A model generated the notes under the pieces. It did not search any database and was not told where the DNA came from. It saw only the letters and a list, made by a program, of their open reading frames with translations. DNA of 64,000 nucleotides. It comes from Lineus longissimus (taxonomy: Eukaryota; Nemertea; Pilidiophora; Heteronemertea; Lineidae). The stretch's first letter is position 1; every line of letters starts with the position of its first letter. The stretch covers positions 1,240,001-1,304,000 of the forward strand of contig NC_088324.1 in NCBI RefSeq assembly GCF_910592395.1. Direction: 5' to 3'. Shown here in pieces: positions 11,658 through 51,957 of the stretch. A program made the translations under genes and the position numbers.

Positions 11658-11949
11658 CGGTTTCCCACCAGGTGGTCTTGTTGTGCGTGTCAGGACGAAT
11701 ATGAAACTGCTGGACACCATTGTGCAGTCACACATACACGATATGGCGATGAGCTACGAGGCTAACTCACAACCCGCACCATGGTGTCAGACAGAGGCAG
11801 AACTGGGCTTCTTTGCGTTTCCTCCCTGGTCACGCATTGCGCAAAACGTCTTAAGAACTGAATAGGGCTATTAGAAACTCCTTCTTGAAGCAAGACCATG
11901 CTAACGTTTGCTAATTTTTATAAAACAAGTCAATAGCAGAACCTCCATC
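11658..11949 (+). other. 3' flank of the channel gene
   Basis: Likely 3' UTR and downstream DNA. Overlapping short frames here are shadows. I could not place a convincing polyadenylation signal. Confidence 0.4.
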
Positions 11950-14130
11950 TTCGAAAAAACTACTCAGATGATAGAAATATAGTCTGCATTCACACCCACA
12001 CCTTCCATAAAACTATTCAGATGATAGAAATATAGGCTACATTTACAGCCGCACCTTCTATAAAACTATTCAGATGAGAGAAATATAGGCTACATTTACA
12101 GCTGCACTTTCTATAAAACTATTCAGATGATAGAAATATAGGCTACATTCACACCTGCGTCTTCTATTAAAACATTAAGATGATAGAAATATAGGCTACA
12201 TTTACAGCTGCACTTTCTATAAAACTATTCAGATGAGAGAAATATAGGCTACATTTACCGCTGCACCTTCTATAAAACTATTCAGATCAGATAAATATAG
12301 GCTACATTCACACCTGCATCTTCTATAGAACTATTCAGATGAGAGAAATATAGGCTACATTCACATCTGCATCTTCTATTAAAAAATTAAGATGATAGAA
12401 ATGAAGACTACATTTACAGCCGCACCTTCTATAAAACTATTCAGATGATAGAAATATAGGCTACATTTACAGCTGCACCTTCTATAAAACTATTCAGATG
12501 AGATAAATATAGGCTACATTCACACCTGCATCTTCTATAGAACTATTCAGATGAGAGAAATATAGGCTACATTCACATCTGCATCTTCTATTAAAAAATT
12601 AAGATGATAGAAATGAAGGCTACATTTACAGCTGCACCTTCTATAAAACTATTCAGATGAGAGAAATATAGGCTACATTTACAGCCGCACCTTCTATAAA
12701 ACTATTCAGATGAGAGAAATATAGGCTACATTTACCGCTGCACCTTCTATAAAACTATTCAGATGATAGAAATATAGGCTACATTTACAGCTGCACCTTC
12801 TATAAAACTATTCAGATGAGAGAAATATAGGCTACATTTACCGCTGCACCTTCTATAAAACTATTCAGATGATAGAAATATAGGCTACATTCACACCTGC
12901 GTCTTCTATTAAAACATTAAGATGATAGAAATATAGGCTACATTTACAGCTGCACTTTCTATAAAACTATTCAGATGATAGAAATATAGGCTACATTTAC
13001 CGCTGCACCTTCTATAAAACTATTCAGATGAGATAAATATAGGCTACATTCACACCTGCATCTTCTATAGAACTATTCAGATGAGAGAAATATAGGCTAC
13101 ATTCACATCTGCATCTTCTATTAAAAAATTAAGATGATAGAAATGAAGGCTACATTTACAGCCGCACCTTCTATAAAACTATTCAGATGATAGAAATATA
13201 GGCTACATTTACAGCTGCACCTTCTATAAAACTATTCAGATGAGATAAATATAGGCTACATTCACACCTGCATCTTCTATAGAACTATTCAGATGAGAGA
13301 AATATAGGCTACATTCACATCTGCATCTTCTATTAAAAAATTAAGATGATAGAAATGAAGGCTACATTTACAGCTGCACCTTCTATAAAACTATTCAGAT
13401 GATAGAAATATAGGCTACATTTACAGCTGCACCTTCTATAAAACTATTCAGATGAGAGAAATTTAGGCTACATTTACAGCTGCACCTTCTATAAAACTAT
13501 TCAGATGATAGAAATATAGGCTACATTTACCGCTGCACCTTCTATAAAACTATTCAGATGAGAGAAATATAGGCTACATTTACAGCTGCACCTTCTATAA
13601 AACTATTCAGATGATAGAAATATAGGCTACATTTACCGCTGCACCTTCTATAAAACTATTCAGATGAGAGAAATATAGGCTACATTAACACCCGCACCTT
13701 CTATAAAACTATTCAGATGAGAGAAATATAGGCTACATTTACCGCTGCACCTTCTATAAAACTATTCAGATGATAGAAATATAGGCTACATTCACACCTG
13801 CGTCTTCTATTAAAAGAATAAGATGATAGAAATATAGGCTACATTCACACCTGCACCTTCTATAAAACTATTCAGATGATAGAAATATAGGCTACTTTCA
13901 CACCTGCACCTTCTATAAAACTATTCAGATGATAGAAATATTGGCTACATTCGCACCCGGACCTTCTTTAAAACTCTTTAGATGATAGAAATATAGGCTA
14001 CATGCACACCTGCACCTTTTATTAAACTATTCAGATGAGAGAAATATAGGCTACATTCACACCTGCATCTTCTATTAACCTATTCAGATGAGCGCACCCG
14101 GACCTTCTATAAAACTATCCAGATTATAGA
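11950..14130. repeat. 53-bp minisatellite with higher-order structure
   Basis: About 40 units of 53 bp with core TATAAAACTATTCAGATG and ATAGGCTACATTTACAG. Marked variant units (TATTAAAAAATTAAGATG with GAAATGAAGG) recur as part of a fixed multi-unit block near 12370, 12590, 13120 and 13330, so blocks of several units were amplified together. Units at the right end (after 13850) are diverged. 53 is not a multiple of 3 and no long frame exists; non-coding. Confidence 0.9.
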
Positions 14131-14329
14131 TGTAAAGCAACACTCACACTTACACTCGTACTCACACCTATTTTTCGACAGTTTTGTGAAGTACTTTTTG
14201 TCGTTTTGAATAATTTTCTCCTCAATTTTTTCGAATATTTTTGTCATTCACAACCAAGAAATTCCACTTGTTTTGTCAGTGAATTATATGATATCAAGTG
14301 TTGCCTTGGAAGTCCTCTACATTGAACTA

Positions 14330-16190
14330 TATACAGATTGCAAGAAGGGGTCGCCCAAGAAGTCATCCACCTTGAACAACATATAGATTACAAAAAGGTG
14401 TAGCCCAGGAAGTCATCCACCTTGAACAACATATAGATTACAAAAAGGTATAGCCCAGGAAGTCATCCACCTTGAACAGCATATAGATTACAAAAAGGTG
14501 TAGCCCAGTAAGTCATTTACCTCGAACAACATATAGATTATAAAAAAGTGTAGCCCAGGAAGTCATTTACCTTGAACAACATATAGATTACAAAAAGGGG
14601 TAGCCCAGGAAGTCATCCACCTTGAACAACATATAGATTACAAAAAGGTGTAGCCCAGTAAGTCATTTACCTCGAACAACATATAGATTACAAAAAAGTG
14701 TAGCCCAGGAAGTCATATACCTTGAACAACATATAGATTACAAAAAGGTGTAGCCCAGGAAGTCATCCACCTTGAACAACATATAGATTACAAAAAGGTG
14801 TAGCCCAGGAAGTCATTTACCTTGAACAACATATAGATTACAAAAAGGGGTAGCCCAGGAAGTCATCCACCTTGAACAGCATATAGATTACAAAAAGGGG
14901 TAGCCCAGGAAGTCATTTACCATGAACAACATATAGATTACAAAAAGGTGTAGTCCAGGAAGTCATCCACCTTGAACAACATATAGATTACAAAAAGGTG
15001 TAGCCCAGGAAGTCATTTACCTCGAACAACATATAGATTACAAAAAAGTGTAGCCCAGGAAGTCGTTTACCTTGAACAACATATAGATTACAAAAATGGG
15101 TAGCCCAGGAAGTCATTTACCTCGAACAACATATAGATTACAAAAAGGGGTAGCCCAGGAAGTCATTTACCTCGAACAACATATAGATTACAAAAAGGGG
15201 TAGCCCAGTAAGTCATTTACCTCGAACAACATATAGATTACAAAAAGGGGTAGCCCAGTAAGTCATTTACCTCGAACAACATATAGATTACAAAAAGGGG
15301 TAGCCCAGGAAGTCATTTACCTCGAACAACATATAGATTACAAAAAGGGGTAGCCAAGGAAGTCATTTACCTTGAACAACATATAGATTACAAAAAGGGG
15401 TAGCCCAGTAAGTCATTCACCTCGAACAATATATAGATTACAAAAAGGGGTAGCCCAGTAAGTCATTTACCTCGAACAACATATAGATTACAAAAAGGGG
15501 TAGCCCAGGAAGTCATTTACCTCGAACAACATATAGATTACAAAAAGGGGTAGCCCAGTAAGTCATTTACCTCGAACAACATATAGATTACAAAAAGGGG
15601 TAGCCCAGTAAGTCATTTACCTCGAACAACATATAGATTACATAAAGGGGTAGCCCAGGAAGTCATTTACCTTGAACAACATGTAGATTACAAAAAGGTG
15701 TAGCCCAGGAAGTCATCCACCTTGAACAGCATATAGATTACAAAAAGGGGTAGCCCAGGAAGTCATTTACCTTGAACAACATATAGATTACAAAAAGGTG
15801 TAGCCCAGTAAGTCATCCACCTTGAACAACATATAGATTACAAAAAGGGGTAGCCCAGGAAATCTTTGCCTTGAACAACATATAGATTACAAAAAGGTGT
15901 AGCCCAGGAAGTCATCCACCTTGAACAACATATAGATTACAAAAAGGGGATAGCCCAGGAAGTCATCCACCTTGAACAACATATAGATTACAAAAAAGGG
16001 ATAGCCCAGGAAGTCATCCACCTTGAACAATATGTAGATTACAAAATGGGGAAGCCCAAGAAGTCATTTACATTCAACAACATATAGATCACAAAAAGGG
16101 TGTGGCCCAGGGAGTCCTTTACCTTGAACAGCATATAGATCACAAAAGTTGTGGCTGAGGAAGTCATTTCTGACTCGATTCCTTCGACAA
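14330..16190. repeat. 50-bp minisatellite
   Basis: About 36 units of 50 bp, core AGCCCAGGAAGTCATCCACC and AACATATAGATTACAAAAAG. Units vary mainly at CCACCTTG/TTACCTCG and GGTG/GGGG. On the minus strand many units read TTCAAG|GTAAATGAC, a good splice-donor consensus. The right end grades into a minus-strand open frame. Confidence 0.9.
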
Positions 16191-17743: not shown

Positions 17744-18600
17744 ATGGGAAGGTTGTTTTCTATATTCCGTTGCAATGAAATCACCAGAAAGTTGCCTTTG
17801 GCAAGGGAATTCCCTTCCTGGCTTGCAAATCTATTTATAGTTCAAGGGATTCCAACATATCGTACGCTGCCATCTGGTGGCGCCAGTTGGTACCTGTACT
17901 CTCCCTGTTTGAGGTTCAACCAGAATAGTCCAATAGAACTGATGCTTGCTGTGTTCCCAAACTTCGCCACCAACTACACCAGTCGTAATTGGTTGTCCGA
18001 GAGAGCGATTTTAGCCCCATGAAATGATGCCGTCAGACACCTCAACAACACGCTCCTTCAACGTCTTCCTACACGAGAAGCTGTACACATCCATAGACAC
18101 TGTACCCGACATCGATCAAACCGTTCACTATCCAGTCGAATTCCTCAATTCACTCCAACCAAGTGGCATGCCCCCACATGACCTCATATTGAAAGTTGGC
18201 TGCCAAATAATGCTCCGCCGCAACCTCGATGCCCCAAGATTGTGCAACGTGACACGCCTCATCGTTTCACGGCTTCTAAGCAACATCATTGAAGCTACCA
18301 TTGCCATCGGCGAATATGCAGGATCAACAGTCTTAATCTCCCGGATACCGCTCATTCCAAGTGACTGTCCATTTCAGTTCAGGCGACTCAAATTTCCCGT
18401 GACACTCTCCTTCGCTATGACATTGAGTTAAGCCCAAGGACAGACACTAAAAGTCGTTGGACTATCGTTATCCACACCATGCTTCTCCCACGGACAGCTT
18501 TATGTAGCATGCTCCAGAGTTGGCCAATCGTCTGCCCTATACTATCACGCAAACGGAACAAAGACAATGAACATGGTTTATCCAGAGGTACTTCAATAGC
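17744..18600 (+). pseudogene. Helitron Rep/helicase, decayed C-terminal fragment
   Basis: Pieces of the PIF1-type helicase region typical of animal Helitrons: VFPNFATNY...LSERAILAP (to 18021), then after a TGA and a frameshift YPVEFLNSLQPSGMPPHDL, LKVGCQIMLRRNLDAPRLCN, RLKFPVTLSFAMTLS, then (after a TAA at 18429-18431) AQGQTLKVVGLSLSTPCFSH and GQLYVACSRV. At least two stops and one frameshift make it inactive. Upstream Rep and helicase N-terminal motifs were not found. Confidence 0.8.
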
Positions 18601-20693: not shown

Positions 20694-23600
20694 CTGAAAA
20701 ATAAGCGAAACGGGTTAACCGAGGTTGGGTTCTCCAAACAGTGGTACTGCTAAAATATTATCATATTATCACATGCTGCAAACGGGTGAATGATCTGAGG
20801 AGTATTCTCTCAAGGAAAAGTGGAAATGTGTAGGATTTCATACTTTTTGGCTAACGAGAACAGATTTGGGGTGAATGTTGGTTAACATCTCAAGGTAAAT
20901 GATGTTCAGTAGCTATGTCCGAGGTTAGACTTCTACAGTGGAACCTCTCGAAGCGGACACCCCTCTATTAAGAACACCCTCTCGAATAAGGACAATGGTT
21001 TTGGTCCCGCACGTGTTATTTTCATTCAAATTGACCTCTGTAATAAGGGCACCTCTCTAATAAGGACATCATATGTTAGTCCCAAGGGTGTCCTTAAATG
21101 AGGTTTTACTGTACTTATAACTTACGCAATAGCGGTATCGGACCATCTGAGAGGGGTGGACCTCCCTGGCCCTCCAATCCAATTTTCCCCACATTTGGAC
21201 CAGCAGGCGGGAGCATGTGAGCTGATTCCATCGCAAACGCATCACGGTGGGGTATGGTTCCGATGATGACGTCAAAATCGAGGCAAAGATCGAATGACGG
21301 GCCCGACGGACTCGCCTCCACCTAGGTGCGATAAAAATTGCCATAGATAACCTTCCAAGATAACTAAGCGGGGGTCGTTACGGGTGAATGCATCTGAAAT
21401 CTACTAAACTCTTCTTCAGGTTCGCCCGGGGTTAGAGTGTGAAGTCTAATGACACCTCTATCATGTATATTGCAGTTGATATTAGACTTTAAACCCAAAA
21501 TTTAAAGTTTTTAGGCCTAATTTTAATTTTAAAGGCCTACGCCGTTCGTTAAAAGTTAGAAATTTGGAATAGAATTTGAAATTTGCAATTGCGTATACAT
21601 GTATACGTACTAAATAAAAAAATGCAGCATTGCCATGTGAAGACAGATACAACTTACACAAAAAAAAGTTTTTTATGCATAATAATTGCACTATGGCATT
21701 GTGTAAGAGTGCTTTTTCATTTTCTTGGACCACCAGTAACTACCAACAGCATACCCCTTGTTACAATGACTACCAACAGCATACCCCTTGTTACAATGAC
21801 TACCAACAGCATACCCCTTGTTACAATGACTACCAACAGCATACCCCTTGTTACAATGACTACCAACAGCATACCCCTTGTTACAATGACTACCAATAGC
21901 ATACCCCTTGTTACATTGACTACCAACAGCATACCCCTTGTTACAATGACTACCAACAGCATACCCCTTGTTACAATGACTACCAACAGCATACCCCTTG
22001 TTACAATGACTACCAAAAGCATACCCCTTGCTACAATGACTACCAACAGCACACCCCTTGTTACAATGACTACCAACAGCACAACCCTTGTTACAATGAC
22101 TACGAACAGCACACCCCTTGTTACAATGACTACCAACAGCATACCCCTTGTTACAATGACTACCAACAGCATACCCCTTGTTACAATGACTACCAACATC
22201 ATACCCCTTGTTACAATGACTACCAACAGCATACCCCTTGTTACAATGACTACCAACAGCATACCCCTTGTTACAATGACTACCAACAGCATACCCCTTG
22301 TTACAATGACTACCAACAGCACACCCCTTGTTACAATGACTACCAACAGCACACCCCTTGTTACAATGACTACCAACAGCACACCCCTTGTTACAATGAC
22401 TACCAACAGCATACCCCTTGTTACAATGACTACCAACAGCATACCCCTTGTTACAATGTGCTTTTTAGAGTCAGCAAAGCATTCTTGAGCCGCCCCTCTT
22501 TTTTTAATGCTCCCATTAAAGGTCAACCTTCTAAGAGAGGTAAACATGCATCACTCGAGAGACCGCTGATACAGATAGTAGACCTATATTTTTGTCCATA
22601 ACCTCATTTTATACAATCTGGGTTGAGTAAATTTACTTGAGTCATGGCTCTATATTTCTAGAGAGTTGTAATATTATAATCAGCACAACATAAAATCAAT
22701 CAGTCCGTATTCAAGTGGTAAATCTAGTTTTTGGACTGTATGAAGTTGGGTGCCTTAGTCCAAAACTAGATTTTGGTCCTCCGCCTTGAAAGAGGTCAAA
22801 CACGTATTATAAAACACCTGGGTTTAGAATGAACCGCACATTACAGTGTAAATGCACTAAGCGCCAATGAAGCCTCGTTTTAAATTCAGCGGTTATGGTT
22901 AGGCTACCATAACCGCTTGGGTTGGTGTAAACTTTGGAAGGATTATTAAAGCCTTTAAAACCACGTTATTCGTTATTGAATTTGAGATGTTTTTGAATAG
23001 AATTGATACTTCACTGTCGGTATGGATTGTCTCACCCAAACCGCTCGGGTAGAGCTACGCCTCGGTTTCGGTCTACATTTTAGCTCCACCCGCGCGGTTT
23101 TAGTGAGAAACCATTATCTCCAGTTCGGTATCAATTCCTTGGTCAAAACTTACCTCAAGAGAATAATAAAGATCAATAAGTGAGCATCCCGTAAGGTACG
23201 TTGGAGCCACAGCAGGAATCAATAACGGCTGGTTGTCCCAGACACACGTTTCACCCGGAGCATATTTCAGTTTTTTTATCTCGACGACATTACGATGATA
23301 GGTCTCTTTCTTTCCTTTCGCTCGCACCTTGATATTCTGCGAAGTAAAGACATAATTCTGCAAAAACAAGATCGAATCCGCTCCACTTGCGAGGTTATCT
23401 GGACATGGCATTCCCTCGATCGGTCGGTGTACATTTAGGGACTCTACTGCATATAGGCAGTAGCAAAGTAGACACGAATAAAGTTACACAAAGTCACCAA
23501 TAGGGTCTCTCACATATCACAGGACGTTTGTACGCTTTGACTTGTACAAACCTCTATATCAAGGATTTTCTAACTCATACCTGGGAAAGATAAACTTTCG

Positions 23601-25165
23601 TCGAGCTCATTGCCCGAGTTGTGTGATTGTTGGCTTCACCCTTTAATATAATGCTTTCGCCAGGAACGTAACCAGTCTTTGGGATCTGCATCCACAGGTC
23701 AAGATATCCAGCGGCACAGCACAGCATCCCAACCGTCTTCTGAGCCTGTTTCCGTTGCGATTTCTGAAATACATTTTTTGAAAATTACAAAACAATTAAT
23801 TTTAGTTAGCTTTTCATTTTGGCGAAAGCCCTATCAATGTGAGTTAAAAAGCGCGAGGATTCCAACTGTAATAGGCCTACACAACCTTTACATTTGGCAT
23901 AAATGCTACAAAAAATAGTTTACTGTTCATTGAAAGTGAGCAACAATAAGGCCTATTAAGAACATCTGAATTGATGTACACTACAGAAAAAGTATTCTTA
24001 CAAACCTTACCATTGCTTTTCTCTCGTCATTGAGATCAGTTTGCTGGATGAGAGTGAAATACTTCTTAGCATATCGATCCAATCTTCTCGGTATGTCAAT
24101 GAAGCTCTCGACCTTGTAGCGAATATACTGTTTTTTATATTTAAAAGATGACGGCAAACCTCGCATGGGCAGTTGAAATTTGAACGGATATTCGTAATTC
24201 CCAGGTTGAAGAACTGGATCCTCTCCCTGCTGCCCCTTTACTGAAATACAGATTTGAAAATTTAGAATCTGCAGACACCGATGCAGGGTTTCCTTGAATA
24301 GGTACACCGTTCGTAATGCCTTATAACTTTTGGTCCAGGAAAATAGAAATGCACTTGACTTATAATATTGTAAGTTGATACAGTACGCAATGCCACAGTA
24401 CAGTTATTATGCAGCGATAAACCTTGTGACAACATGTATAGTTTTCAAGAGAATTTTCCGGAGTTGCTATGATGACCAAGAAAGATAATTTATCCTAAGA
24501 AAAAGTAGACTGCGCAATCGTCCCTCATGACACTAAAGGTAGGGGGCAGCACTGGATATTGCTAATACGTACTTTTCCCAAAGACAGTGATGGTTTCTTC
24601 GAAATAGTTTTCCTCTTCCTCATCAGAGGAGCTGCCATCATCAACGTAGGTGTGACATTCGCCAATGCAACGTACTCTCACAGCTGCAAGAAAAACACAA
24701 TCTTTGTTGGAGAAACTTGCGGACATCTGAACACTACACACATATTAACAGTGCAGCACGTGTGGTAACAACAGATCGGCAGCAGTGCAGGTAGAGGTCA
24801 GTTGTATACAGCCTCTAATTCACTGCTGCTCTAACCCAACCACAAACCAGTGGTTTCTCGTTATTTCAAACGATACGAGTGAACAAAACCTAAGCTATTG
24901 GGCACATCCTGAGGAAATCTGGGGTAGGGCCTAAATGTTCGCTTCTCCGACCCAGTAAGGACTAAAGGAAGGAAGAGTAGAGGAAGTCATTTCCTCAGGA
25001 TGGACTTTGGCCATGGGCGAAACTTTGGCAAGAGTTTTTAGGCCAACCTCTGCATTTGAACTCCTCGTTGAGATCTAAATAAACAAAGCCATCTACATCA
25101 TCTCCTGCCTGGAATACCGCATCTTCTTTAGAAAACACAACTTCGAAGCGAGTTATTCTTCCCAT
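20548..25165 (-). CDS. Arrestin domain-containing protein (ARRDC/alpha-arrestin), complete
   Basis: Alpha-arrestins are cytosolic/endosomal adaptors that link membrane cargo to NEDD4-type ubiquitin ligases through PPxY motifs. Seven minus-strand exons join with matching phases (25048-25165, 24573-24683, 24011-24240, 23581-23763, 23154-23357, 21126-21321, 20548-20693) to give 395 residues, the usual family length. The N-domain begins MGRITRFEVVFSKEDAVFQA, with CIGE and LQPGNYEYPFKFQLP...GLPSSF...IRYKVES. The C-domain has GYVPGESIILKGEANNHTTR and FDVIIGTIP. The tail carries PPPSYY (PPSY at residues 349-352). Nothing appears broken. Introns 5 and 6 hold repeats. Which vertebrate ARRDC it matches best cannot be said without alignment. 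Confidence 0.92.
20936..21111. mobile_element. Pogo/Tigger-like MITE (176 bp)
   Basis: The ends CAGTGGAACCTCTCGAAG and CTTAAATGAGGTTTTACTG form imperfect ~28-bp inverted repeats flanked by TA (20934-20935, 21112-21113). The CAGTxGAACCTC end and the repeated TAATAAGGACA-like motifs are typical of pogo/Tigger derivatives. It lies in ARRDC intron 6 and stops only about 14 bp from the exon 6 donor. Confidence 0.75.
21126..21321 (-). CDS. ARRDC exon 6 (end of arrestin C-domain)
   Basis: Minus-strand acceptor CGCACCTAG and donor C|GTAAGT. Encodes V-E-A-S-P-S-G-P-S-F-D-L-C then LDFDVIIGTIPHRDAF, the closing strands of the arrestin C-domain, and a Gly/Pro-rich linker ending PIPLL. Joins exon 5 in phase 0. 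Confidence 0.88.
21738..22458. repeat. 30-bp minisatellite in ARRDC intron 5
   Basis: About 24 near-identical 30-bp units, core TACCAACAGCATACCCCTTG then TTACAATGAC. Variants include ACACCCC for ATACCCC and isolated point changes. The 10-residue periodic frames in it are a result of the period. It sits about 400 bp from the nearest exon, so it is not a splice-junction array. Confidence 0.9.
22800..23147 (+). repeat. Composite foldback element, second family
   Basis: The left module has CTGGGTTTAGAATGAACCGC and a stem GGTTATGGTTAGGCTACCATAACC-like palindrome near 22900. The right module is a hairpin (about 22985-23147) with CCGCTCGGGTAGAGCT / AGCTCCACCCGCGCGG arms and an AATTCCTT end. The same two modules occur inverted at 33838-34098 and the left module, degraded, at 32036-32160. 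The hairpin edge lies a few bases from the ARRDC exon 5 donor. Confidence 0.7.
23154..23357 (-). CDS. ARRDC exon 5 (arrestin C-domain)
   Basis: The minus-strand acceptor is GTTTTTGCAG and the donor GAG|GTAAGT. Sixty-eight codons, phase 0 both ends: N-Y-V-F-T-S-Q-N-I-K-V-R-A-K-G-K-K then a stretch ending TYLTGCSLIDLYYSLE, matching the mid C-domain strands of alpha-arrestins. Confidence 0.9.
23581..23763 (-). CDS. ARRDC exon 4 (start of arrestin C-domain)
   Basis: Minus-strand acceptor TATTTCAG, donor CAG|GTATGAG. Sixty-one codons in phase 0: KSQRKQAQKTVGMLCCAAGY, then GYVPGESIILKGEANNHTTR, the conserved G-Y-x-P-G-E...N-x(2)-T/S-x-R pattern at the start of the alpha-arrestin C-domain, ending KVYLSQ. 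Confidence 0.92.
24011..24240 (-). CDS. ARRDC exon 3 (arrestin N-domain)
   Basis: Minus-strand acceptor CTGTATTTCAG, donor ATG|GTAAGG. Encodes K-G-Q-Q-G-E-D-P-V then LQPGNYEYPFKFQLPMRGLP, SSF, IRYKVESFIDIPRRLD, the most conserved block of the alpha-arrestin N-domain. Phase 1 in, phase 0 out. Confidence 0.93.
24573..24683 (-). CDS. ARRDC exon 2
   Basis: Minus-strand acceptor TTTTTCTTGCAG and donor AAAA|GTACGT. Encodes VRVRCIGECHTYVDDGSSSD, then E-E-E-E-N-Y-F-E-E-T. VRxRCxGE followed by a Ser/acidic loop is typical of ARRDC N-domains. Phase 1 at both ends. Confidence 0.88.
25048..25165 (-). CDS. ARRDC exon 1 (start codon)
   Basis: ATG at 25163-25165 in the context GTGAAATGG. Encodes MGRITRFEVVFSKEDAVFQA, then GDDVDGFVYLDLNEEFKCR, the standard start of ARRDC proteins. 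The donor is G|GTTGGC, weaker than the other donors, but the split codon restores CRAVRVRCIGE with exon 2. Confidence 0.88.
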
Positions 25166-35105: not shown

Positions 35106-36284
35106 TTAGTTTTGTTTCAAGTCGTACACTACAGTATACAAAACCCTTGATTTCAGCGTTAATGATTCGTTCACCTTGTTACTATCTGCCAATGTTGTAC
35201 GGTTTACCATGGCGAAGTACGGCCGGAGTTCATCACAGGACAGGGTGTGAATATGCCGTTCAGGATGTTCCTGTTTATGATTATACCAGTTGCTGGCGCA
35301 TTTGGTAAGATCATACAAGCCAAGTATCGCATCTGTCTTTCTTGGAGCATAAAACCAATGCCCTTCAAATGGTCTTTTTGTCAAAGGGAATACCATGTCT
35401 TTTTTGAAGACGTACTTTTTCCACGTGGTATCGAAGTCGTAAATGAACTCTTTGTCTTCTTTGTAGAAACTGATGTCTATATAAGGAAAACGAAACTCCC
35501 GGTTCGGTATTATTGAATCGTTGGTCCTGTAGAACTTCAGTCTCTTGTTGATGTAGTAGACTGTGTAATTAGATCCTAATCGCTGTAAAGCCTTTATGGC
35601 CCGTCTTCTCTCGGCGTAGGGAATAAACACATCCACATCATCGTCCCAGGGCACAAATCCGTGGTATCTATATGACCCTAAAAGAGTCCCTCCATACAGC
35701 ATGTAGGTCACGTAACTCTTCACACATGTATCGTGGAATAACTTGAGAAGGATTATGAATGTATCTCGATCTTTCGTCTCCAATTTTCTCTTGAAATGTT
35801 TCATCGATCCACCTTTAATTTCCTGATCGTAATTCTTCGCCGTCGGCAGTTTTGGTTCGTCACGTGACCGGAAGTGCAAACTTGACACGGCATCCTGGAT
35901 GACTTGCGTGGATGGAAGATACTGCTCGCTGCTGGCTGATATGGTTGGGCTCGAAAGCAGCACCGGCGACCAGTGGATCGGTTTCAATTCTTTCTGTGAA
36001 TCAGACAGCCGTTGGTTTAGCATGATAGATGAAACTTTGTTATTTTCCGAGCGAAGACTTGGATGAAATGACATGATCTGTTTGGAAAAGTCAGTCTTAC
36101 GTTCCTTGACGGAATGTGCCACCGCTCTGCTGAGTGGTCGGTGAGTAATTCCGAATCTTCTGAAAACACATGTAAAATAAATTATGAAAGCCATGCAGAG
36201 AAACGCAATTACATATAGTATCCGTAACTGCCATTGTCTTAGTTTGATCGCCGGCATCCTCGCCTGATCCGTACTCCACCTCAA
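35106..36284 (-). CDS. LicD-domain type II membrane protein, single exon
   Basis: LicD-family enzymes transfer phospho-sugar/choline-type groups; animal relatives (fukutin/FKRP-like) act in the Golgi on glycans. The 392-codon frame has no intron. A short basic N-terminus (K-L-R-Q-W) is followed by a membrane anchor at about residues 20-41 (LRILYVIAFLCMAFIIYF), a ~145-residue stem, then the LicD core: MLYGGTLLGSYRYHGFVPWD at 195-214 continuing DDVDVFIP (the D-D-D-x-D metal site), and an RFPYIDISFY block at 265-274. Two N-glycosylation sequons (NRT, NES) are near the C-terminus. Start could be M1 or M10 (MPAIKLRQW); both keep the anchor. Substrate unknown. Confidence 0.88.
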   Translation of the reverse strand: MRWSTDQARMPAIKLRQWQLRILYVIAFLCMAFIIYFTCVFRRFGITHRPLSRAVAHSVKERKTDFSKQIMSFHPSLRSENNKVSSIMLNQRLSDSQKELKPIHWSPVLLSSPTISASSEQYLPSTQVIQDAVSSLHFRSRDEPKLPTAKNYDQEIKGGSMKHFKRKLETKDRDTFIILLKLFHDTCVKSYVTYMLYGGTLLGSYRYHGFVPWDDDVDVFIPYAERRRAIKALQRLGSNYTVYYINKRLKFYRTNDSIIPNREFRFPYIDISFYKEDKEFIYDFDTTWKKYVFKKDMVFPLTKRPFEGHWFYAPRKTDAILGLYDLTKCASNWYNHKQEHPERHIHTLSCDELRPYFAMVNRTTLADSNKVNESLTLKSRVLYTVVYDLKQN

Positions 36285-37565
36285 AAAGATGTCGCACTAA
36301 CATCAGAATGATCTGCATGACGATGCTGTCCAAAGATAAATTACTGCACCTGTATGTGATCCATAGGGCTCGTGAAAGAAGTTTCGAGGACCACATGTTT
36401 ATATACACTGAAATGTAAACCGTGTATGACATGTGTGAAAAACCGATATTGACATGTTTCGGAACTTGAGCTTCAACCAAATGCAGTGAATAGCAAAACG
36501 TACCAGTATAAGACTTATTGGATTTTGTGCAATAAACCCAACCAACGCCATGGTCCCTATGTTTTTTCTTATTTATGATACACATCCCGACCCAGTTATC
36601 CTTTAAGCCGTGGTCTATGAGACCCCAAGTGGGAATTTATTTGAAATCATTTCATTGTTTCATGCCATAAAGGAACATATCAGAACTTTTTTTCATCCAA
36701 TAATGTACTTTTTGGAAACAATTATTTTGTATTCAAACCCGCATTTTTACTTATCAAACCATCAATTTATTTCCAAACCAGGAAAGCATACACAAATTAT
36801 TTCCATACCCTAGTATTAGTAGTTGTGAAAATCCATTGTTTGGAAAACACGCACGGTTGGCGTTTTTATTCTTTCAAACCGTGTTGAGTCGCACTGTAAT
36901 CGTACAGTAATTATTTTAAACCACAGAATATGCTTAGATTCATCGTTAACAACCAACGAACATCTGGGAAAAACATCATCTTCATCCCACGGACAAATGC
37001 ACCCGCTCCCAACTTATGGTATGCATTTCTAGTTCCTTTGTTGAAGATTATGTAGCTAACCCTAACCAAACCAAACAAAAACTACAGGGGCCAAAAATAA
37101 TGGTCGCTCCCCCATTTCGCTTGTTTCGTTGCGTTGGACAGACTCCAGTAAGCCTCAGTTTAATGCATAAATCAATCTTTGGGCACCGAATGGCAGCTGT
37201 AGAAACACAGTAGAATCAGGTCAACAGGACAACTTCAAACAATGATCGAAGTCTAAAGTTCATTTTCCTATGAAATATAAAACTGTCAGTATTTCTGAAA
37301 CCACTGGGAATTTGAAACCGAACCAATTGGGGAGGGGGGGGGGGGGGCGAAGTCGAGATTTTGTCCACAGCGACTGTGCACAGATAAGAGGAAAGGTGAA
37401 AATTCTGAAATATGGTTAAAGTTTTTATATAAAGACAATCCTCTATGAATGTGAAAGCGAGCTGTGACAGAGCCAATCTTACCTTTGCGGCTGGTATATA
37501 ATTTGGAAATGGAAAATTGAATGTTTAGGATTGAGCCTCGAATGGTCTTCAAAAATGGCGTAATC
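36285..37565. other. No gene recognised
   Basis: 5' flank of the LicD gene and intergenic DNA. A G-rich run (GGGGAGGGGGGGGGGGG-like) is at about 37330-37348. Short frames only. Confidence 0.4.
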
Positions 37566-43735: not shown

Positions 43736-44488
43736 GGCTTCGATAGAGTTTATTAATTTTTTCATTGTAAAAGCCCTTGACTTTAGATTACCTTTTGTTG
43801 ATACGCACTGTATAATGCAGTGCATTCTCGGAGTTGAAGCATAGAATTGCGATGATATAATATGTTGCCATCTGCTTAAGACAGTACAATCAACAAGTCC
43901 AATTAATTTAATATAATCGTGCAAAAAACGGAGAGTTAAAAGAATCTCTCGTCCGCGAGAAAAAATAGTAACAGCTCCACAAACGAGAGATTTAGATTGG
44001 TGAAAGCCGCGATTTAAAGCACATGCGACGGTTATCACTTGTTTGGGCCAGTGCTTTACCAGGCGATTACAAGTTTGCCTGCAATGAAACACGAGATCTT
44101 AATGTCGCACAGATCAAGATAAAAAATTGAGACCGCTGCCTCGAAAATGAGGCCCAGTGTAAAATCATTTGTCTTAATGAACTATTTCACGCAGAAGCAG
44201 TGAGATAAGTCCAACCTTGGAAGAGTCAAGGCTAATCAAATTACAAAAGCCCCCTATATTCAAAACTGAGTGTTACCTCACCAATAGCTTGTTTTAAAAG
44301 TTTTCGTCTCTAATCAATGCTTGGTATTACATAATACATATAAATCAACACTGCGTTACAGTCGAATGTGTTAGAATCAGTTATATCATACTGTTTTAGT
44401 GTCAACCAATCGAATGAAGTCTCTTAGGAATGATGGCTTTTACAATGGGGCTTCGATAGAGTTTATTAATTTTTTCATTGTAAAAGCC
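43736..44488. repeat. 40-bp direct repeat flanking the palindrome's inserted arm
   Basis: The 40-bp sequence beginning GGCTTCGATAGAGTTTATTA occurs at 43736-43775 and again at 44449-44488. Copy B of the segmental duplication has a single version at about 63857-63895. The left palindrome arm lies between the two. Confidence 0.9.
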
Positions 44489-45149
44489 ATCATTCCTAAG
44501 AGACTTCATTCGATTGGTTGACACTAAAACAGTATGATATAACTGATTCTAACACATTCGACTGTAACGCAGTGTTGATTTATATGTATTATGTAATACC
44601 AAGCATTGATTAGAGACGAAAACTTTTAAAACAAGCTATTGGTGAGGTAACACTCAGTTTTGAATATAGGGGGCTTTTGTAATTTGATTAGCCTTGACTC
44701 TTCCAAGGTTGGACTTATCTCACTGCTTCTGCGTGAAATAGTTCATTAAGACAAATGATTTTACACTGGGCCTCATTTTCGAGGCAGCGGTCTCAATTTT
44801 TTATCTTGATCTGTGCGACATTAAGATCTCGTGTTTCATTGCAGGCAAACTTGTAATCGCCTGGTAAAGCACTGGCCCAAACAAGTGATAACCGTCGCAT
44901 GTGCTTTAAATCGCGGCTTTCACCAATCTAAATCTCTCGTTTGTGGAGCTGTTACTATTTTTTCTCGCGGACGAGAGATTCTTTTAACTCTCCGTTTTTT
45001 GCACGATTATATTAAATTAATTGGACTTGTTGATTGTACTGTCTTAAGCAGATGGCAACATATTATATCATCGCAATTCTATGCTTCAACTCCGAGAATG
45101 CACTGCATTATACAGTGCGTATCAACAAAAGGTAATCTAAAGTCAAGGG
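43774..45149. repeat. Large palindrome, 674-bp arms, 28-bp spacer
   Basis: Positions pairing to the sum 88923 are complementary from 43774/45149 to 44447/44476. No mismatch was seen in the parts compared, and a 126-codon and a 107-codon frame at 43712-44092 (-) and 44831-45154 (+) are mirror copies of one another. Those frames start M-F-H-C-R-Q-T-C and have no known domain. The near-perfect arms indicate a very recent event or gene conversion. Confidence 0.95.
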
Positions 45150-45816
45150 GTTAATATTCCAAGGCTATTTAGTTTCAGAAGCTACATGTGGTCTACTATT
45201 GAAGAGGATATCCTCAGATTTCCATTGATACCATTCTTGCGTTATTACGGTCTCGCATGACCGAGTAAATTGTAATAGAAAATGACGAGTTCAAATCGAA
45301 AATTTCCAAGTTTGTGCAAGTTGAATGAATACGTTCAAATTGTACGTTTACAAACTTAAAAAGATCAAAACGAACACGATTTTCTCAGGAATTATTTGGC
45401 TTTATTCAGAGATCTTCTTATCTTGTATTTTATGCACCCACACTTTCAACATGCCCTCCGCCTCTTGCAACACAAAGTTCACAGCGATAGAGCATGCCCT
45501 GAACTGCTTGTCTGATCACTGCGCGATTCCTGCGTAAAACATCCACTTCGTGTTGAATTCGGCCCTCCAAGTCATTAAGATCACGGGGAGGAGTCGCAAA
45601 CACCTTGTTTTTCATGTATCCCCAAAGGAAAAAAGTGAGAGATCAGTTTGTAATCGTTTATTTCAATTCACCAAACTTGGACATTTTTGGAGGAATGGTA
45701 TTATTGGAAAGCTGAGGATCTCCTCTTCATTAGTAAACCACAATCATATTGTTAAACTAAATAGTATTGGCATATTAACCCCATGAATTTGGATTACCTT
45801 TTTTTGATACGCACTG
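45113..45816 (-). mobile_element. Tc1/mariner-type element, internally deleted
   Basis: Inverted ends CAGTGCGTATCAACAAAAGG at 45113 and its near-complement ending at 45816 (GATTACCTTTTTTTGATACGCACTG), about 28 bp, flanked by TA on both sides. It contains the C-terminal part of a mariner/IS630-type transposase on the minus strand. 704 bp is about half the size of an intact element. Confidence 0.88.
45430..45615 (-). pseudogene. Mariner-type transposase C-terminal fragment
   Basis: Reads NKVFATPPRDLNDLEGRIQH, then a short helix and Y-R-C-E-L-C-V-A-R-G-G-G-H-V-E. V-Y/F-x-T-P-x-x-D-L-x-D-L-x-x-R-I followed by R-x-x-x-C-x-x-x-x-G-x-H-x-E is the usual end of this transposase group. The DDE/D catalytic region is absent. 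Confidence 0.8.
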
Positions 45817-45979: not shown

Positions 45980-46240
45980 ATGGATATCCTAATCTTCGCC
46001 TCGGCTATAGGAAACAAAGAGGTGGTGGATCTATTGATTAAAGCGGGGGCGAATATAGAATGTAAAGACAATGGCGGGAATACTCCAATCATCATTGCCT
46101 CGATTAATGGACACCAAGAGGTGGTGGATCTATTGATTAAAGCGGGGGCGGATATAGAATGTAAAGACAATGACGGGGATACTCCAATCATCATCGCCTC
46201 GATTAAAGGACACCAAGAGGTGGTGGAGCTATTGATTTAA
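45980..46240 (+). CDS. 5' part of ankyrin-cGLR frame, ends at in-frame TAA
   Basis: ATG at 45980 (MDILIFASAIGNKEVVDLLI) opens 2.6 ankyrin repeats in the same frame as the large downstream frame. The TAA at 46238-46240 replaces the AAA (Lys) found in the equivalent position of most later units (LLIKAGA). If translated alone it gives an 86-residue ankyrin stub. An in-frame TGA about 30 bp upstream of the ATG means any earlier coding exon would have to be spliced in. Confidence 0.55.
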   Translation: MDILIFASAIGNKEVVDLLIKAGANIECKDNGGNTPIIIASINGHQEVVDLLIKAGADIECKDNDGDTPIIIASIKGHQEVVELLI

Positions 46241-48320
46241 GCGGGGGCGAATATAGAATGTAAACACAATGACGGGAATACTCCAATCATCATCGCCTCG
46301 ATTAATGGACACCAAGAGGTGGTGGATCTATTGATTAAAGCGGGGGCGAATATAGAATGTAAACACAATGGCGGGAATACTCCAATCATCATCGCCTCGA
46401 TTAATGGATACCAAGAGGTGGTGGATCTATTGATTAAAGCGGGGGCGAATATAGAATGTAAAAGCATTAGCGGGAATACTCCAATCATCATCGCCTCGAT
46501 TAATGGACACCAAGAGGTGGTGGATCTATTGATTAAAGCGGGGGCGAATATAGAACATACCAACAATGAGGGAAGAACTCCGTTTGGTTGTGTTTCGATT
46601 GAAGGACACAAAGAGGTGGTGGATCTATTGATTAAAGCGGGGGCGAATATAGAATGTAAAGACAATGACGGAGATACTCCAATCATCATCGCCTCGATTA
46701 AAGGACACCAAGAGGTGGTGGATCTATTGATTAAAGCGGGGGCGAATATAGAATGTAAACACAATGGTGGGAATACTCCAATCATCATCGCCTCGACTAA
46801 TCGACACCAAGAGGTGGTGGATCTATTGATTAAAGCGGGGGCGAATATAGAATGTAAAGACAATGACGGGAATACTCCAATCATCATCGCCTCGATTAAT
46901 GGACACCAAGAGGTGGTGGATCTATTGATTAAAGCGGGGGCGAATATAGAATGTAAAGACAATGACGGGAATACTCCAATCATCATCGCCTCGATTAATG
47001 GACACCAAGAGGTGGTGGATCTATTGATTAAAGCGGGGGCGAATATAGAATGTAAAGACAATTGCAGGAATACTCCAATCATCATCGCCTCGATTAATGG
47101 ATACAAAGAGGTGGTGGATCTTTTGATTAAAGCGGGGGCGAATATAGAATGTAAAGGCAATGGCGGGAATACTCCAATCATCAACGCCTCGATTAAAGGA
47201 CACCAAGAGGTGGTGGATCTATTGATTAAAGCGGGGGCGGATATAGCATGTAAAGACAATGGCGGGAATACTCCAATCATCATCGCCTCGATTAATGGAC
47301 ACCAAGAGGTGGTGGATCTATTGATTAAAGCGGGGGCGAATATAGAATGTAAAGACAATGGCGGGAATACTCCAATCATCATCGCCTCGATTAATGGACA
47401 CCAAGAGGTGGTGGATCTATTGATTAAAGCGGGGGCGAATATAGAATGTAAAGACAATGGCGGGAATACTCCAATCATCATCGCCTCGATTAAAGGACAC
47501 CAAGAGGTGGTGGATCTATTGATTAAAGCGGGGGCGAATATAAAATGTAAAGACAATGGCGGGAATACTCCAATCATCAATGCCTCGATAAAAGGACACC
47601 AAGAGGTGGTGGATCTATTGATTAAAGCGGGGGCGAATATAGAATGTAAAGACAATGGCGGGAATACTCCAATCATCATCGCCTCGATTAAAGGACACCA
47701 AGAGGTGGTGGATCTATTGATTAAAGCGGGGGCGAATATAAAATGTAAAGACAATGGCGGGAATACTCCAATCATCATCGCCTCGATTAATGGACACCAA
47801 GAGGTGGTTGATCTATTGATTAAAGCGGGGGCGAATATAGAATGTAAAGGCAATGGCGGGAATACTCCAATCATCATCGCCTCGATTAATGGACACCAAG
47901 AGGTGGTGGATCTATTGATTAAAGCGGGGGCGAATATAGAATGTAAAGACAATGGCGGGAATACTCCAATCATCATCGCCTCGACTAATGGACACCAAGA
48001 GGTGGTGGATCTATTGATTAAAGCGGGGGCGAATATAGAATGTAAAGGCAATGGCGGGAATACTCCAATCATCTTCGCCTCGACTAATGGACACCAAGAG
48101 GTGGTGGATCTATTGATTAAAGCGGGGGCGAATATAGAATGTAAAAACATTAGCGGGAATACTCCAATCATCATCGCCTCGACTAATGGACACCAAGAGG
48201 TGGTGGATCTATTGATTAAAGCGGGGGCGAATATAGAATGTAAAGACAAGGACGGGGCTACTCCAATCATCATCGCCTCGACTGAAGGACATAAGGATGT
48301 GGTGGATCTATTAGTTAAAG
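45998..48320 (+). repeat. 99-bp tandem array encoding ankyrin repeats (~23 units)
   Basis: Units of 99 bp (33 codons), consensus G-N-T-P-I-I-I-A-S-I-N-G-H-Q-E-V-V-D-L-L-I-K-A-G-A-N-I-E-C-K-D-N-G, an ankyrin repeat with TPI in place of TPL. Adjacent units are nearly identical in DNA, including silent sites, so they were recently amplified or are being homogenised. The minus strand is also open through most of the array (a period effect). Confidence 0.95.
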
Positions 48321-50461
48321 CGGATGCAATTATTGAAGTCAGTAACTATGAAAACGACACTCCGATAGTTTGCGCAGCTAAATGGGGTAATGTTGAAATT
48401 GTTGACGTTTTGTTGAAAGAAGGTGCTTGTTCCAGAAGTTCTAGTTATGGATCGCTATTAAATATTGGTGCAACGTTTGGTCGACGACGGGTCGTTGAAT
48501 ATATTTTGAGACGCGGGATGTCATTAGAAATCCGTGACTTGAAAGGAAACACCCCACTTCAAAATGCAATCATAAAGGGTCATCTCTCAGTGGTCCAACT
48601 CCTAATAAGGAGTGGAGCAGATACATCCACATCAAACTCTTCGTCGGAGAGTATTATATATTCTGCTGCTTCGTGTGGCCATGCCGATATGGTGAAATAC
48701 TTGGGAAGCAGTGATGCACGGAAGTTATTGGATTTGCCCAATGCCAGTGGATGGTCGCCTATTGCCAAGGCAGTTTCAGGTGGTCATTTTCGGACAGTTA
48801 GACAACTTCATCAGCTTGGAGCTGACATGAACTGCAGCGTAAATGGAAAAGGACTGCTTCATCTAGCAGCTGAGTCCGGTTGCCTAGATATCTATCAATA
48901 TCTTATCATCGCTGGGCTTGACTGCAAACGACCCAACATCCATGGATTGAAGGCTTATGAATGCTTCCCCTTTCAATCAAAACTTAATTATCAAGCAAGC
49001 AACCGATTAGGACATTCCTCCGAACAAAGTCTCTCTTACGTCATGTCGCGATTAAATGAACAATATGCTACACCCGCGTATAGATACAAACTTTCAGAAC
49101 TATCGTGTGTACTGGGACTAGGCAGCGTGAATATCATCGAGGGTGGTGTTTCAGAAACTATCATGGGGTTTGTAAGGGAGAAGGAGGTTGTTAAGGGTTT
49201 AGAGTTATGCGGAAGTTCGGCTGAAGGCACGAAGGTTCAGCTGCCTGATGAAATGGACTTCCTTAGATTGGTACATCCAACTCAATATAATCTCTCTCGA
49301 AACGAAATGGTTGACAACTTACATGGATATAAGTATATAAGAACTAGAAAAATTAAGAACAGGTTTTTATCAAGTAAAGCACTCCATGAGATTCAAAGCC
49401 AAAACCTAGAATCTAGCACAAAAGCCCAAGAGTCTAAAAAAAGCGGAGAAATCCTTTTGCAGGCAGTTGCTGGAGGAGGCGGTGCCAGTGTTCCTGTGAC
49501 TATCAGATGGCCCGATGATAAACCTTTAAAACGCATTGTCTCAGATCATATAGTAACAACCTTACCAGTAGATGATTGGCCTGATGATTGGCAAGATGAT
49601 TGGTCCAATTATGCACTACAGAAAGGAGAATCTGAAAGTGAGGTAACGGCGGACGTTTGTGTTTATCAACGGACCGGATGCATCTTATCTCAAGTTGATG
49701 CTAGAAGAGGATTGGCCAGTGTTCCTGTGACTATCAGAAGGCTTGAAAATATATCATCCAGTCTCCTTATCTCTTTGGATATAGTACCGATATTTCATGT
49801 TGATGATTGGCCAGACGATGCTATCAAGAAGACCTGGCGAATGGACGAGGACACCTTGAGGAAGAGTGGGTATAGGCTGGTCCTGAAACCGCCACACAAG
49901 GACAGTGAGTACGGACGGTTGCTACCCGAGGAAGACAGAGAAAGAATGTTGCGGATCTCCTTCTCTCATCTAGAACCTGTCACAATCGCACCTTTGGATC
50001 CAAGAATCAAAGACGCATACATCACAGCAAAGTGTCTGAGGTCACCTATGGCATGTGGCGTTGTGATTAGAGACACGAACGGCGTCATACATTTCGTCAG
50101 TCACTTCCTTACAAGCTACCTCCTGAAGACAGTCTTCCTCCATAACATAGACGACTTCCTTGAGACAAACAGGAGCCTGCCAGAGATGGTCTACATCATC
50201 TACAGCCAACTTGAGGATTACCTCGGCAAGGGCAACCTACCGTTCTACTGGCAGCCCAGCGTCAATCTGCTGGAAGGCTTGAAACTCAACATAGCCAAGT
50301 CTCATCAAGTCGCCAAGTTGATGAAGGCAATCGTTGGTAGGATGTCCCGCCTGGAGCGTGGTGATGAGAACCATGGTGACGACGCGAGGGAAGATGGGCC
50401 AAGCATTGAAGCCGCTGATGACGAGCCTGACATAGGTTGTTACATCGTCAGATTAGAATAG
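46241..50461 (+). CDS. Ankyrin repeat-Mab-21/cGAS-like nucleotidyltransferase fusion (cGLR)
   Basis: cGAS-like receptors (cGLRs) sense nucleic acid or other ligands and make cyclic dinucleotides that activate STING; other Mab-21 proteins lack activity. Numbering codons from 46319 as 1: about 20 near-identical ankyrin repeats (1-660), seven diverged ones (to ~880), then a Mab-21 domain. The nucleotidyltransferase motif is GSS at 965-967 and E978-x-D980 (LPDEMDF); the third acidic residue is D1154 in LISLDIVPIF followed by HVDDWPDD. The C-terminal helical part has RISFSHLE and FLTSYLLKT (~1262-1271), as in the family. All three metal ligands are present, so catalysis is plausible. No in-frame ATG exists between the TAA at 46238 and 48518. 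No intron was needed in the model. Confidence 0.82.
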   Translation, partial: AGANIECKHNDGNTPIIIASINGHQEVVDLLIKAGANIECKHNGGNTPIIIASINGYQEVVDLLIKAGANIECKSISGNTPIIIASINGHQEVVDLLIKAGANIEHTNNEGRTPFGCVSIEGHKEVVDLLIKAGANIECKDNDGDTPIIIASIKGHQEVVDLLIKAGANIECKHNGGNTPIIIASTNRHQEVVDLLIKAGANIECKDNDGNTPIIIASINGHQEVVDLLIKAGANIECKDNDGNTPIIIASINGHQEVVDLLIKAGANIECKDNCRNTPIIIASINGYKEVVDLLIKAGANIECKGNGGNTPIINASIKGHQEVVDLLIKAGADIACKDNGGNTPIIIASINGHQEVVDLLIKAGANIECKDNGGNTPIIIASINGHQEVVDLLIKAGANIECKDNGGNTPIIIASIKGHQEVVDLLIKAGANIKCKDNGGNTPIINASIKGHQEVVDLLIKAGANIECKDNGGNTPIIIASIKGHQEVVDLLIKAGANIKCKDNGGNTPIIIASINGHQEVVDLLIKAGANIECKGNGGNTPIIIASINGHQEVVDLLIKAGANIECKDNGGNTPIIIASTNGHQEVVDLLIKAGANIECKGNGGNTPIIFASTNGHQEVVDLLIKAGANIECKNISGNTPIIIASTNGHQEVVDLLIKAGANIECKDKDGATPIIIASTEGHKDVVDLLVKADAIIEVSNYENDTPIVCAAKWGNVEIVDVLLKEGACSRSSSYGSLLNIGATFGRRRVVEYILRRGMSLEIRDLKGNTPLQNAIIKGHLSVVQLLIRSGADTSTSNSSSESIIYSAASCGHADMVKYLGSSDARKLLDLPNASGWSPIAKAVSGGHFRTVRQLHQLGADMNCSVNGKGLLHLAAESGCLDIYQYLIIAGLDCKRPNIHGLKAYECFPFQSKLNYQASNRLGHSSEQSLSYVMSRLNEQYATPAYRYKLSELSCVLGLGSVNIIEGGVSETIMGFVREKEVVKGLELCGSSAEGTKVQLPDEMDFLRLVHPTQYNLSRNEMVDNLHGYKYIRTRKIKNRFLSSKALHEIQSQNLESSTKAQESKKSGEILLQAVAGGGGASVPVTIRWPDDKPLKRIVSDHIVTTLPVDDWPDDWQDDWSNYALQKGESESEVTADVCVYQRTGCILSQVDARRGLASVPVTIRRLENISSSLLISLDIVPIFHVDDWPDDAIKKTWRMDEDTLRKSGYRLVLKPPHKDSEYGRLLPEEDRERMLRISFSHLEPVTIAPLDPRIKDAYITAKCLRSPMACGVVIRDTNGVIHFVSHFLTSYLLKTVFLHNIDDFLETNRSLPEMVYIIYSQLEDYLGKGNLPFYWQPSVNLLEGLKLNIAKSHQVAKLMKAIVGRMSRLERGDENHGDDAREDGPSIEAADDEPDIGCYIVRLE
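48518..50461 (+). CDS. Possible shorter start of the cGLR (first ATG after the stop)
   Basis: ATG at 48518-48520 (R-R-G-M-S-L-E-I) is the first in-frame Met downstream of the TAA. A product from here would have four or five ankyrin repeats and the whole nucleotidyltransferase domain, 647 codons. Alternative to read-through, or to splicing an upstream exon into the array. Confidence 0.3.
   Translation: MSLEIRDLKGNTPLQNAIIKGHLSVVQLLIRSGADTSTSNSSSESIIYSAASCGHADMVKYLGSSDARKLLDLPNASGWSPIAKAVSGGHFRTVRQLHQLGADMNCSVNGKGLLHLAAESGCLDIYQYLIIAGLDCKRPNIHGLKAYECFPFQSKLNYQASNRLGHSSEQSLSYVMSRLNEQYATPAYRYKLSELSCVLGLGSVNIIEGGVSETIMGFVREKEVVKGLELCGSSAEGTKVQLPDEMDFLRLVHPTQYNLSRNEMVDNLHGYKYIRTRKIKNRFLSSKALHEIQSQNLESSTKAQESKKSGEILLQAVAGGGGASVPVTIRWPDDKPLKRIVSDHIVTTLPVDDWPDDWQDDWSNYALQKGESESEVTADVCVYQRTGCILSQVDARRGLASVPVTIRRLENISSSLLISLDIVPIFHVDDWPDDAIKKTWRMDEDTLRKSGYRLVLKPPHKDSEYGRLLPEEDRERMLRISFSHLEPVTIAPLDPRIKDAYITAKCLRSPMACGVVIRDTNGVIHFVSHFLTSYLLKTVFLHNIDDFLETNRSLPEMVYIIYSQLEDYLGKGNLPFYWQPSVNLLEGLKLNIAKSHQVAKLMKAIVGRMSRLERGDENHGDDAREDGPSIEAADDEPDIGCYIVRLE
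49484..49840 (+). repeat. 77-codon internal duplication in the catalytic region
   Basis: GCCAGTGTTCCTGTGACTAT occurs at 49484 and again at 49715, exactly 231 bp apart. Aligned, residues 1056-1090 and 1133-1167 share ASVPVTIR...S...IV...VDDWPDD. The second copy has the catalytic-type D1154; the first has His at that place (1077). Confidence 0.85.
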
Positions 50462-51323: not shown

Positions 51324-51957
51324 ATTCTAAAATACCTTGGTACCGTAAAGTCAACTTTTAAATGAAAAATGCATAAGCCTCGTTCTGAGAGTGGAGTGTT
51401 TTGGACACGCAACCAAGATGCTCTACCAAAGTTCCCTCGGGTTGCACTAAAATGTGGAACCATGCACACAGCTCACTTCAGAAGTTTGAGGCTCTCAAAA
51501 CACTGCTTCAAACACAAATCAGCCAAGGAAGCATCAACCACCCTAAGTTTTTTAATGAGCACTACACATATTTGCCGAGAAAAACGCTCCAAATAGCCCA
51601 TTTGCGCGGATTTTAGCGTCACTTGAGCGAGCCGATCCGGACTTCCTATAGGCGCTGCCGTAACATAATGTAAACAACGGCGCTACCGGCGCTCCGGGCA
51701 GGCGATGGATGGAATTTGCCAAATTCGCACATATTCAAGTTATTTCGTGGCCTATCTTTTTAAGTTTGAGGTATTTTAGAATAGAAATTGAACCCTCGGC
51801 TTCGGACCTTGGTTGAGTTACCAAGACACTCTCGGGTGGAGCTAAAATTTCGTCCAAACCCTCGCCTGTCGGCTCGGGTTTGGACTGTATTTTAGCTCCA
51901 CCCTCGAGTGTCTTGGTAACTCAACCAAGGTCCTCCGCCTCGGGTTCAATTCCTTAA
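51324..51957 (+). repeat. Composite foldback element, copy 3 of 3
   Basis: Same body as copy 1 (5498-6132), starting ATTCTAAAATACCTTGG, then the hairpin at about 51786-51951. In this copy the loop and part of the left arm are in opposite orientation compared with copies 1 and 2 (CTCGCCTGTCGGCTCG instead of CGAGCCGATAGGCGAG). Confidence 0.85.

Follow-up and report, generated by a model that had tools for sequence, protein, structure and literature searches.

The window analysed here, a stretch of 64,000 nt of Lineus longissimus DNA (C17:1240001-1304000), contains an open frame that the original prediction read as a cGAS-like receptor with an intact catalytic triad, fused to ankyrin repeats, which raises the question of whether such a protein is encoded at this locus and what it would sense. 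Our main reading, to which we give a probability of roughly 0.55, is that this locus belongs to a large family of Lineus longissimus genes, each with an ankyrin stack ahead of a cGAS-like nucleotidyltransferase, with the working proposed below. Of more interest than the single copy is this family of ankyrin-fused cGAS-like enzymes, which is large, fast-changing and for the most part acidic, and for which we searched the genome (391,118,348 bases, 30 contigs). The parts of the window copy are as follows.

45980-46240, + strand: actual start of the coding frame with the first ankyrin units, ATG 45980 to TAA, 86 codons
46238-46240, + strand: premature stop TAA, from the unit listing, the remaining 23 units carrying AAA at this codon
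46241-50461, + strand: reported open frame, a single continuous frame of 1406 codons plus stop
45992-48323, + strand: array of tandem ankyrin units, each of 99 nt (33 aa), from TRF, unit anchoring and Pfam
48293-49069, + strand: non-repeat ankyrin repeats, together with the linker that leads into the enzyme, from Pfam and AF2 helices
49070-50398, + strand: cGAS/Mab-21 type nucleotidyltransferase with C-terminal helix bundle

The predicted gene at 46241-50461 stood as one open frame, whereas its start did not: the frame as given is an incomplete gene, since past the stop no in-frame ATG occurs until 48518, beyond the repeat array. The upstream context of ATG 45980, TGVHIKCKNYMD, is also present at L011, a paralogue with one uninterrupted 1535-codon frame, and the N-terminal peptide of gene models P0006 and P0007 matches the frame beginning at this ATG. 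Judged from these comparisons, the in-frame TAA, which falls in the third ankyrin unit one codon ahead of 46241, is internal to the gene, and the copy cannot be called intact. The alternative of two separate genes is ruled out by the one continuous frame after the stop and by the single protein in P0006, P0007 and P0009, and the predicted fusion is thus a single gene; it recurs in other gene models of Lineus longissimus and in metagenome proteins.

In the assembly the window copy is interrupted at codon 87 and, barring an error of assembly at this stop, the full protein is probably not made. We lean slightly towards a recent pseudogene, or a copy that yields a short ankyrin fragment alone, given the TAA in unit 3 and the lack of a later in-frame ATG within the array, and given array frameshifts in 2 of 10 aligned close paralogues, compared mostly over 3′ parts of the arrays (L014, and L010, 19.9 kb downstream of the window copy, with a 1-nt insertion). 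Against a pseudogene, private amino-acid changes have not accumulated outside the fast regions: beyond the hot spot and the insert described below, the private changes of the copy number 2, both synonymous, and 1 private non-synonymous change lies within those regions, which suggests, on small counts, that the break is recent or false. An error of assembly or polishing at 46238, which would leave the copy intact and full-length, comes somewhat short of an even chance. The same lack of decay speaks for it, as do the L010 and L014 breaks, which likewise lie within arrays; the window difference is, however, a substitution, whereas HiFi reads typically err in homopolymers. A single round of polishing used short 10X Illumina reads, which could mis-map in near-identical repeats, but the long reads of the assembly are HiFi at 79-fold (PMC8593623). 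At another locus, L018, the frame begins in non-ankyrin sequence.

The enzyme half keeps the catalytic acids of the cGAS/Mab-21 type.

49211-49219, + strand: GSS of the nucleotidyltransferase signature, by sequence reading, with the G invariant in 19/19 rows
49250-49258, + strand: E-M-D, the first two catalytic acids (E at 49250-49252, D at 49256-49258), invariant E61 and D63 of alignment A1
49778-49780, + strand: third catalytic Asp (ISLDIVP), invariant D237 of alignment A1

The predicted intact catalytic triad was borne out by this reading and by the invariance of G, E, D and D across 19/19 rows of alignment A1. The predicted Mab-21 domain was recovered in its C-terminal part, where Mab-21_C (PF20266) matches residues 1288-1348 at 32.0 bits (cut-off 24.1), but not by the N-terminal model PF03281, to which the window frame gives no match at E<=1; that model matched 18/27 A2 members at E<=0.01. 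Profile A1 aligns with the Crassostrea virginica enzyme Cv-cGLR1 and with cGAS over about positions 23-327 of 368, so that superfamily homology extends from the NTase core through the C-terminal helix bundle and places the enzyme in the Mab-21/cGAS superfamily, which it shares with Mab21L1/2 and MB21D2 (the latter a weak match to the profile). The predicted fold agrees with this superfamily in structural alignment, with 17% identity between the window enzyme and Cv-cGLR1 (PDB 8gjw). A plain Foldseek search gave ankyrin-type entries only among the 50 matches listed, and a separate enzyme-only structure model, at pLDDT 44, was left unused.

We observed all three catalytic acids ([DE]h[DE] ... 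[DE] after GS) in 68/71 rows of a wider alignment. Its rows represent 71 of 74 loci, the excluded three being short fragments with open frames of 79, 136 and 155 codons, and they leave out four non-ankyrin Mab-21 matches (L001, L003, L006, L007). L036 is misaligned in it and L023 trimmed past GS; both have the GSSAEGTK...E-x-D motif by direct reading. The published pattern for active cGLRs, h[QT]GS X8-20 [DE]h[DE]h X50-90 h[DE]h (PMC9980059, in the sections available), was matched exactly by 0/71 rows with ‘h’ as defined in this analysis. The window has C before GS in place of Q/T, as in 39/68 rows, and its third Asp lies 171 residues on, against an expected 50-90; both the C and the wider spacing set the Lineus enzymes apart from the ankyrin cGLRs described in that survey. 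Taken literally, the pattern would miss all 71 rows, which calls for caution in its use.

That mismatch speaks for an enzyme half that is a dead Mab-21-like scaffold in a protein serving as a binding platform, a role that would suit ankyrins, which are typical binding modules. We regard this as improbable, given the retention of all three acids in 68/71 rows and purifying selection on the C-terminal half, which has an omega of 0.42 after the insert; by contrast, the Lineus Mab21L-like protein L001 keeps E-F-E and has Q at the third acid in the alignment. For Mab21L1/2 themselves, PMC9980059 gives complete putative sites in section 5, yet no predicted functional site in a legend.

On the main reading, the locus is one of many. 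The six-frame genome search gave at least 83 matches, which merge, where they share a strand and lie <2.5 kb from one another, into 74 loci spread over 16 contigs, counts that are lower bounds; 65/74 loci lie within open frames of 800 codons or more and 16 of 74 are on C17. Ankyrin models match at least 29/40 short stretches and 26/27 longer stretches (25 of these 27 being Lineus loci or the window, and 2 metagenome proteins). In a phylogenetic tree, 17 ankyrin-fused rows, three of them metagenomic, form one clade (100/100) apart from L001, which may argue against a placement among inactive Mab-21 proteins, although the deep branches, on which the choice of sister group depends, are long and weak (46/50). 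A scan of viral contigs confirmed no relative.

An expansion of this kind is not unusual, as some bivalves have >200 cGLR proteins (PMC9980059, from the text available), nor is the layout new. The same survey, as far as its available parts go, already has ankyrin-repeat cGLRs as an architecture class (Fig. 1C) and reports three Stylophora pistillata cGLRs with extra domains, including ankyrin and death domains; the ankyrin-cGLR layout is a known kind. The published proteins resemble those of Lineus in joining an ankyrin module to a cGAS-like nucleotidyltransferase with catalytic acids. Unlike them, as they are described there, the Lineus set, known from sequence alone, is one expanded clade of about 74 loci, and the window’s subgroup (12/68 rows) has a duplicated hairpin. 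The literature searched described no ankyrin-fused cGLRs from ribbon worms, a negative that does not prove absence.

The predicted very long ankyrin domain fused to the enzyme was upheld by ankyrin Pfam models, which match the reported frame with a best E of 1.3e-189, and by the array itself, with a copy number of 23.6 by TRF and 24 anchored units, every spacing exactly 99 nt. Unit positions 2, 3, 5, 13, 14, 26 and 33, which we take to be target-binding as in designed ankyrins, are more variable than the others among 129 units from 11 loci (mean entropy 1.35 vs 0.45 bits, one-sided p 0.0016), a comparison in which most of the 11 arrays are covered in part; positions 1 and 10, outside this set, are also strongly variable, and position 26, within it, is almost invariant. 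Only 5/107 distinct units were common to more than one of 10 loci, and no unit-by-unit orthology was seen between the arrays of the 10 loci compared, a combination that would fit array reshuffling. Units appear on average to be drawn from a shared pool, since the mean difference within arrays (11.3 of 99) nearly equals that between arrays (11.8). The window array is an exception, differing by 6.4 within itself vs 7.0-11.4 to each other array, and has therefore likely undergone some homogenisation.

Within the enzyme, change is concentrated in one place, and the claim of fast change found support both there and in the ankyrins, whose variation falls mainly at target-binding positions. These results speak for fast change as such and do not point to pathogens as its driver, which the original prediction held possible.

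49274-49444, + strand: 57-codon hypervariable stretch after E-x-D, omega 3.04, clustering p 0.0002

Codon models of 11 sequences over six regions gave this stretch an omega of 3.04 (p 0.005 vs 1; 7.1, p 0.0007, without L019), with values of 0.54 over the non-repeat ankyrins, 0.79 (not significant) from the enzyme start up to E-x-D and 2.43 (not significant) for the 27 codons after the stretch. The limits of the 57-codon stretch were drawn once a coarser pass had shown an excess, and a six-fold correction takes the p of 0.005 to ~0.03; an unguided sliding window located the same stretch (permutation p 0.0002), where the non-synonymous excess is 49:6 vs 186:103 (Fisher p 0.0002). Gene conversion between paralogues could bias these omega estimates.

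A further feature, on which the original prediction is silent, lies between the hypervariable stretch and the third Asp.

49526-49735, + strand: 70-codon insertion containing a decayed copy of the third-Asp hairpin, made by tandem duplication, absent from L024

The insertion is shared with the window’s close paralogues in alignment A1 and arose when the pair of strands around the third Asp was duplicated in tandem, the DNA of the two halves sharing, when aligned, an exact core of 24 nt (at 49484 and at 49715); a repeat search of the enzyme gave 13-19 nt families only and missed this core. The first copy of the hairpin is without the Asp, by our own reading of the alignment, and the resulting acid spacing of 169-171 residues occurs in 12/68 rows. 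The insertion looks like a tolerated disordered loop, in view of its low modelled confidence (residues 432-511 below 50) and an omega of 1.52 that is not different from 1 (p 0.27). We considered whether it could be an intron, which is unsupported: P0001, P0006 and P0007 retain it, and the genomic frame of L024 is continuous without it. Elsewhere, L023 (C8:20325005-20328757) has a single open frame with several extra third-Asp hairpin segments, a partly repeated catalytic core and aligned acids 384 residues apart, and L036 (C4:6764433-6768023; P0009) has, by eye, a long extra stretch between E-x-D and the third Asp, at the same site as the window insertion.

What such an enzyme would respond to can be approached through its charge. 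Nucleic-acid-sensing cGLRs have a pI above 8.5, and some acidic, auto-active cGLRs are thought to answer other ligands, according to the available text of PMC9980059. The window enzyme domain has a pI of 5.76, well under that level; over 68 members the median is 6.36, with 51 below 7 and 9 above 8.5, the values here being for the aligned domain and the published ones for cGLR proteins. On the same stretch, pig cGAS gave 9.12, Cv-cGLR1 9.01 and the incomplete 7lt2 stretch 6.50. Since this last is presumably from a Tribolium cGLR reported as a dsRNA sensor, pI separates ligand classes imperfectly. The zinc ribbon motif, H-x5-CC-x6-C, was absent in 23/24 rows, the window included, and present only in pig cGAS. 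Vertebrate cGAS thus differs from the window enzyme by its zinc ribbon, its basic domain (pig pI 9.1) and its lack of ankyrins, and Cv-cGLR1, basic at pI 9.0 over the compared region, is dsDNA-activated (PMC9980059, as excerpted).

A catalytic domain that senses nucleic acid like cGAS, with ankyrins that merely localise or cluster the enzyme, would share the cGAS/cGLR fold and follow a known cGLR mode (PMC9980059, from the sections available). The members with pI above 8.5 (9/68) may indeed bind nucleic acid, and the 7lt2 stretch indicates that a low partial-domain pI need not exclude it; this alternative is nevertheless unlikely, since the window domain is acidic and has no zinc ribbon, a feature that Cv-cGLR1 also lacks. 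We infer instead that the ligand is something other than nucleic acid, and most likely a protein bound by the ankyrins.

What was observed is the fusion, the match in fold, the conservation of the catalytic residues, the size and acidic charge of the family and its hot spots of change; beyond this, the working proposed in the main reading would have four steps. The ankyrin array would bind a protein ligand, probably a microbial or modified host protein, through its variable hairpin and helix positions; binding would relieve inhibition of the acidic catalytic domain, or cluster it; the E-x-D...D site, to judge by fold and conserved residues, would join NTPs into a cyclic nucleotide; and STING or a similar receptor would putatively read this product. 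A STING homologue in the same genome, for which the original prediction proposed a search, was detected at exon level: the ligand-binding model PF15009 has one genome match, C11:2036599-2036703, over model positions 1-35 and just over the cut-off (27.4 bits against 27). The 57-codon frame around it is STING in Pfam (3.7e-7) and all 60 PDB matches listed for it are STING/TMEM173; among the neighbouring frames on C11 none was recognised.

Extending this, the nemertean repertoire could comprise ~70 cGAS-like receptors that sense proteins and not nucleic acid, with swappable ankyrin surfaces and, as a second contact, the positively selected face beside the catalytic site, feeding cyclic-nucleotide signalling, a possibility that we put forward tentatively and hold to be rather doubtful. 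The published survey (PMC9980059) leaves open what acidic cGLRs respond to, and a large ankyrin clade of recent duplicates with a mapped hot spot offers intact paralogues for asking whether animal cGAS-like enzymes sense proteins.

The surroundings of the gene in the window include the following.

35106-36296, - strand: LicD-family protein (PF04991, E 1.8e-17)
23100-24403, - strand: arrestin-domain gene with at least 2 exons (Arrestin_N 5.5e-15; Arrestin_C 8.3e-6, slightly below cut-off)
18015-18431, + strand: Pif1 helicase 2B domain (9e-15), perhaps a Helitron remnant
4991-5362, + strand: amiloride-sensitive sodium channel exon (PF00858, 2.4e-8)

Just upstream of the gene lies a perfect 677-nt inverted repeat (43771-44447 / 44476-45152, 28-nt spacer), which is either an artefact of the assembly or a fold-back duplication of very recent date, with partial matches to both arms in the regions upstream of L010 and L011. 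Downstream, 51783-51954 is an inverted repeat with 84-nt arms, 85% complementary, and a 4-nt spacer. Long tandem arrays occupy 2345-3393 (period 45 nt), 6330-8390 (54), 11949-14091 (53), 14308-16169 (50) and 21739-22458 (30), and some of these five are open in more than one frame.
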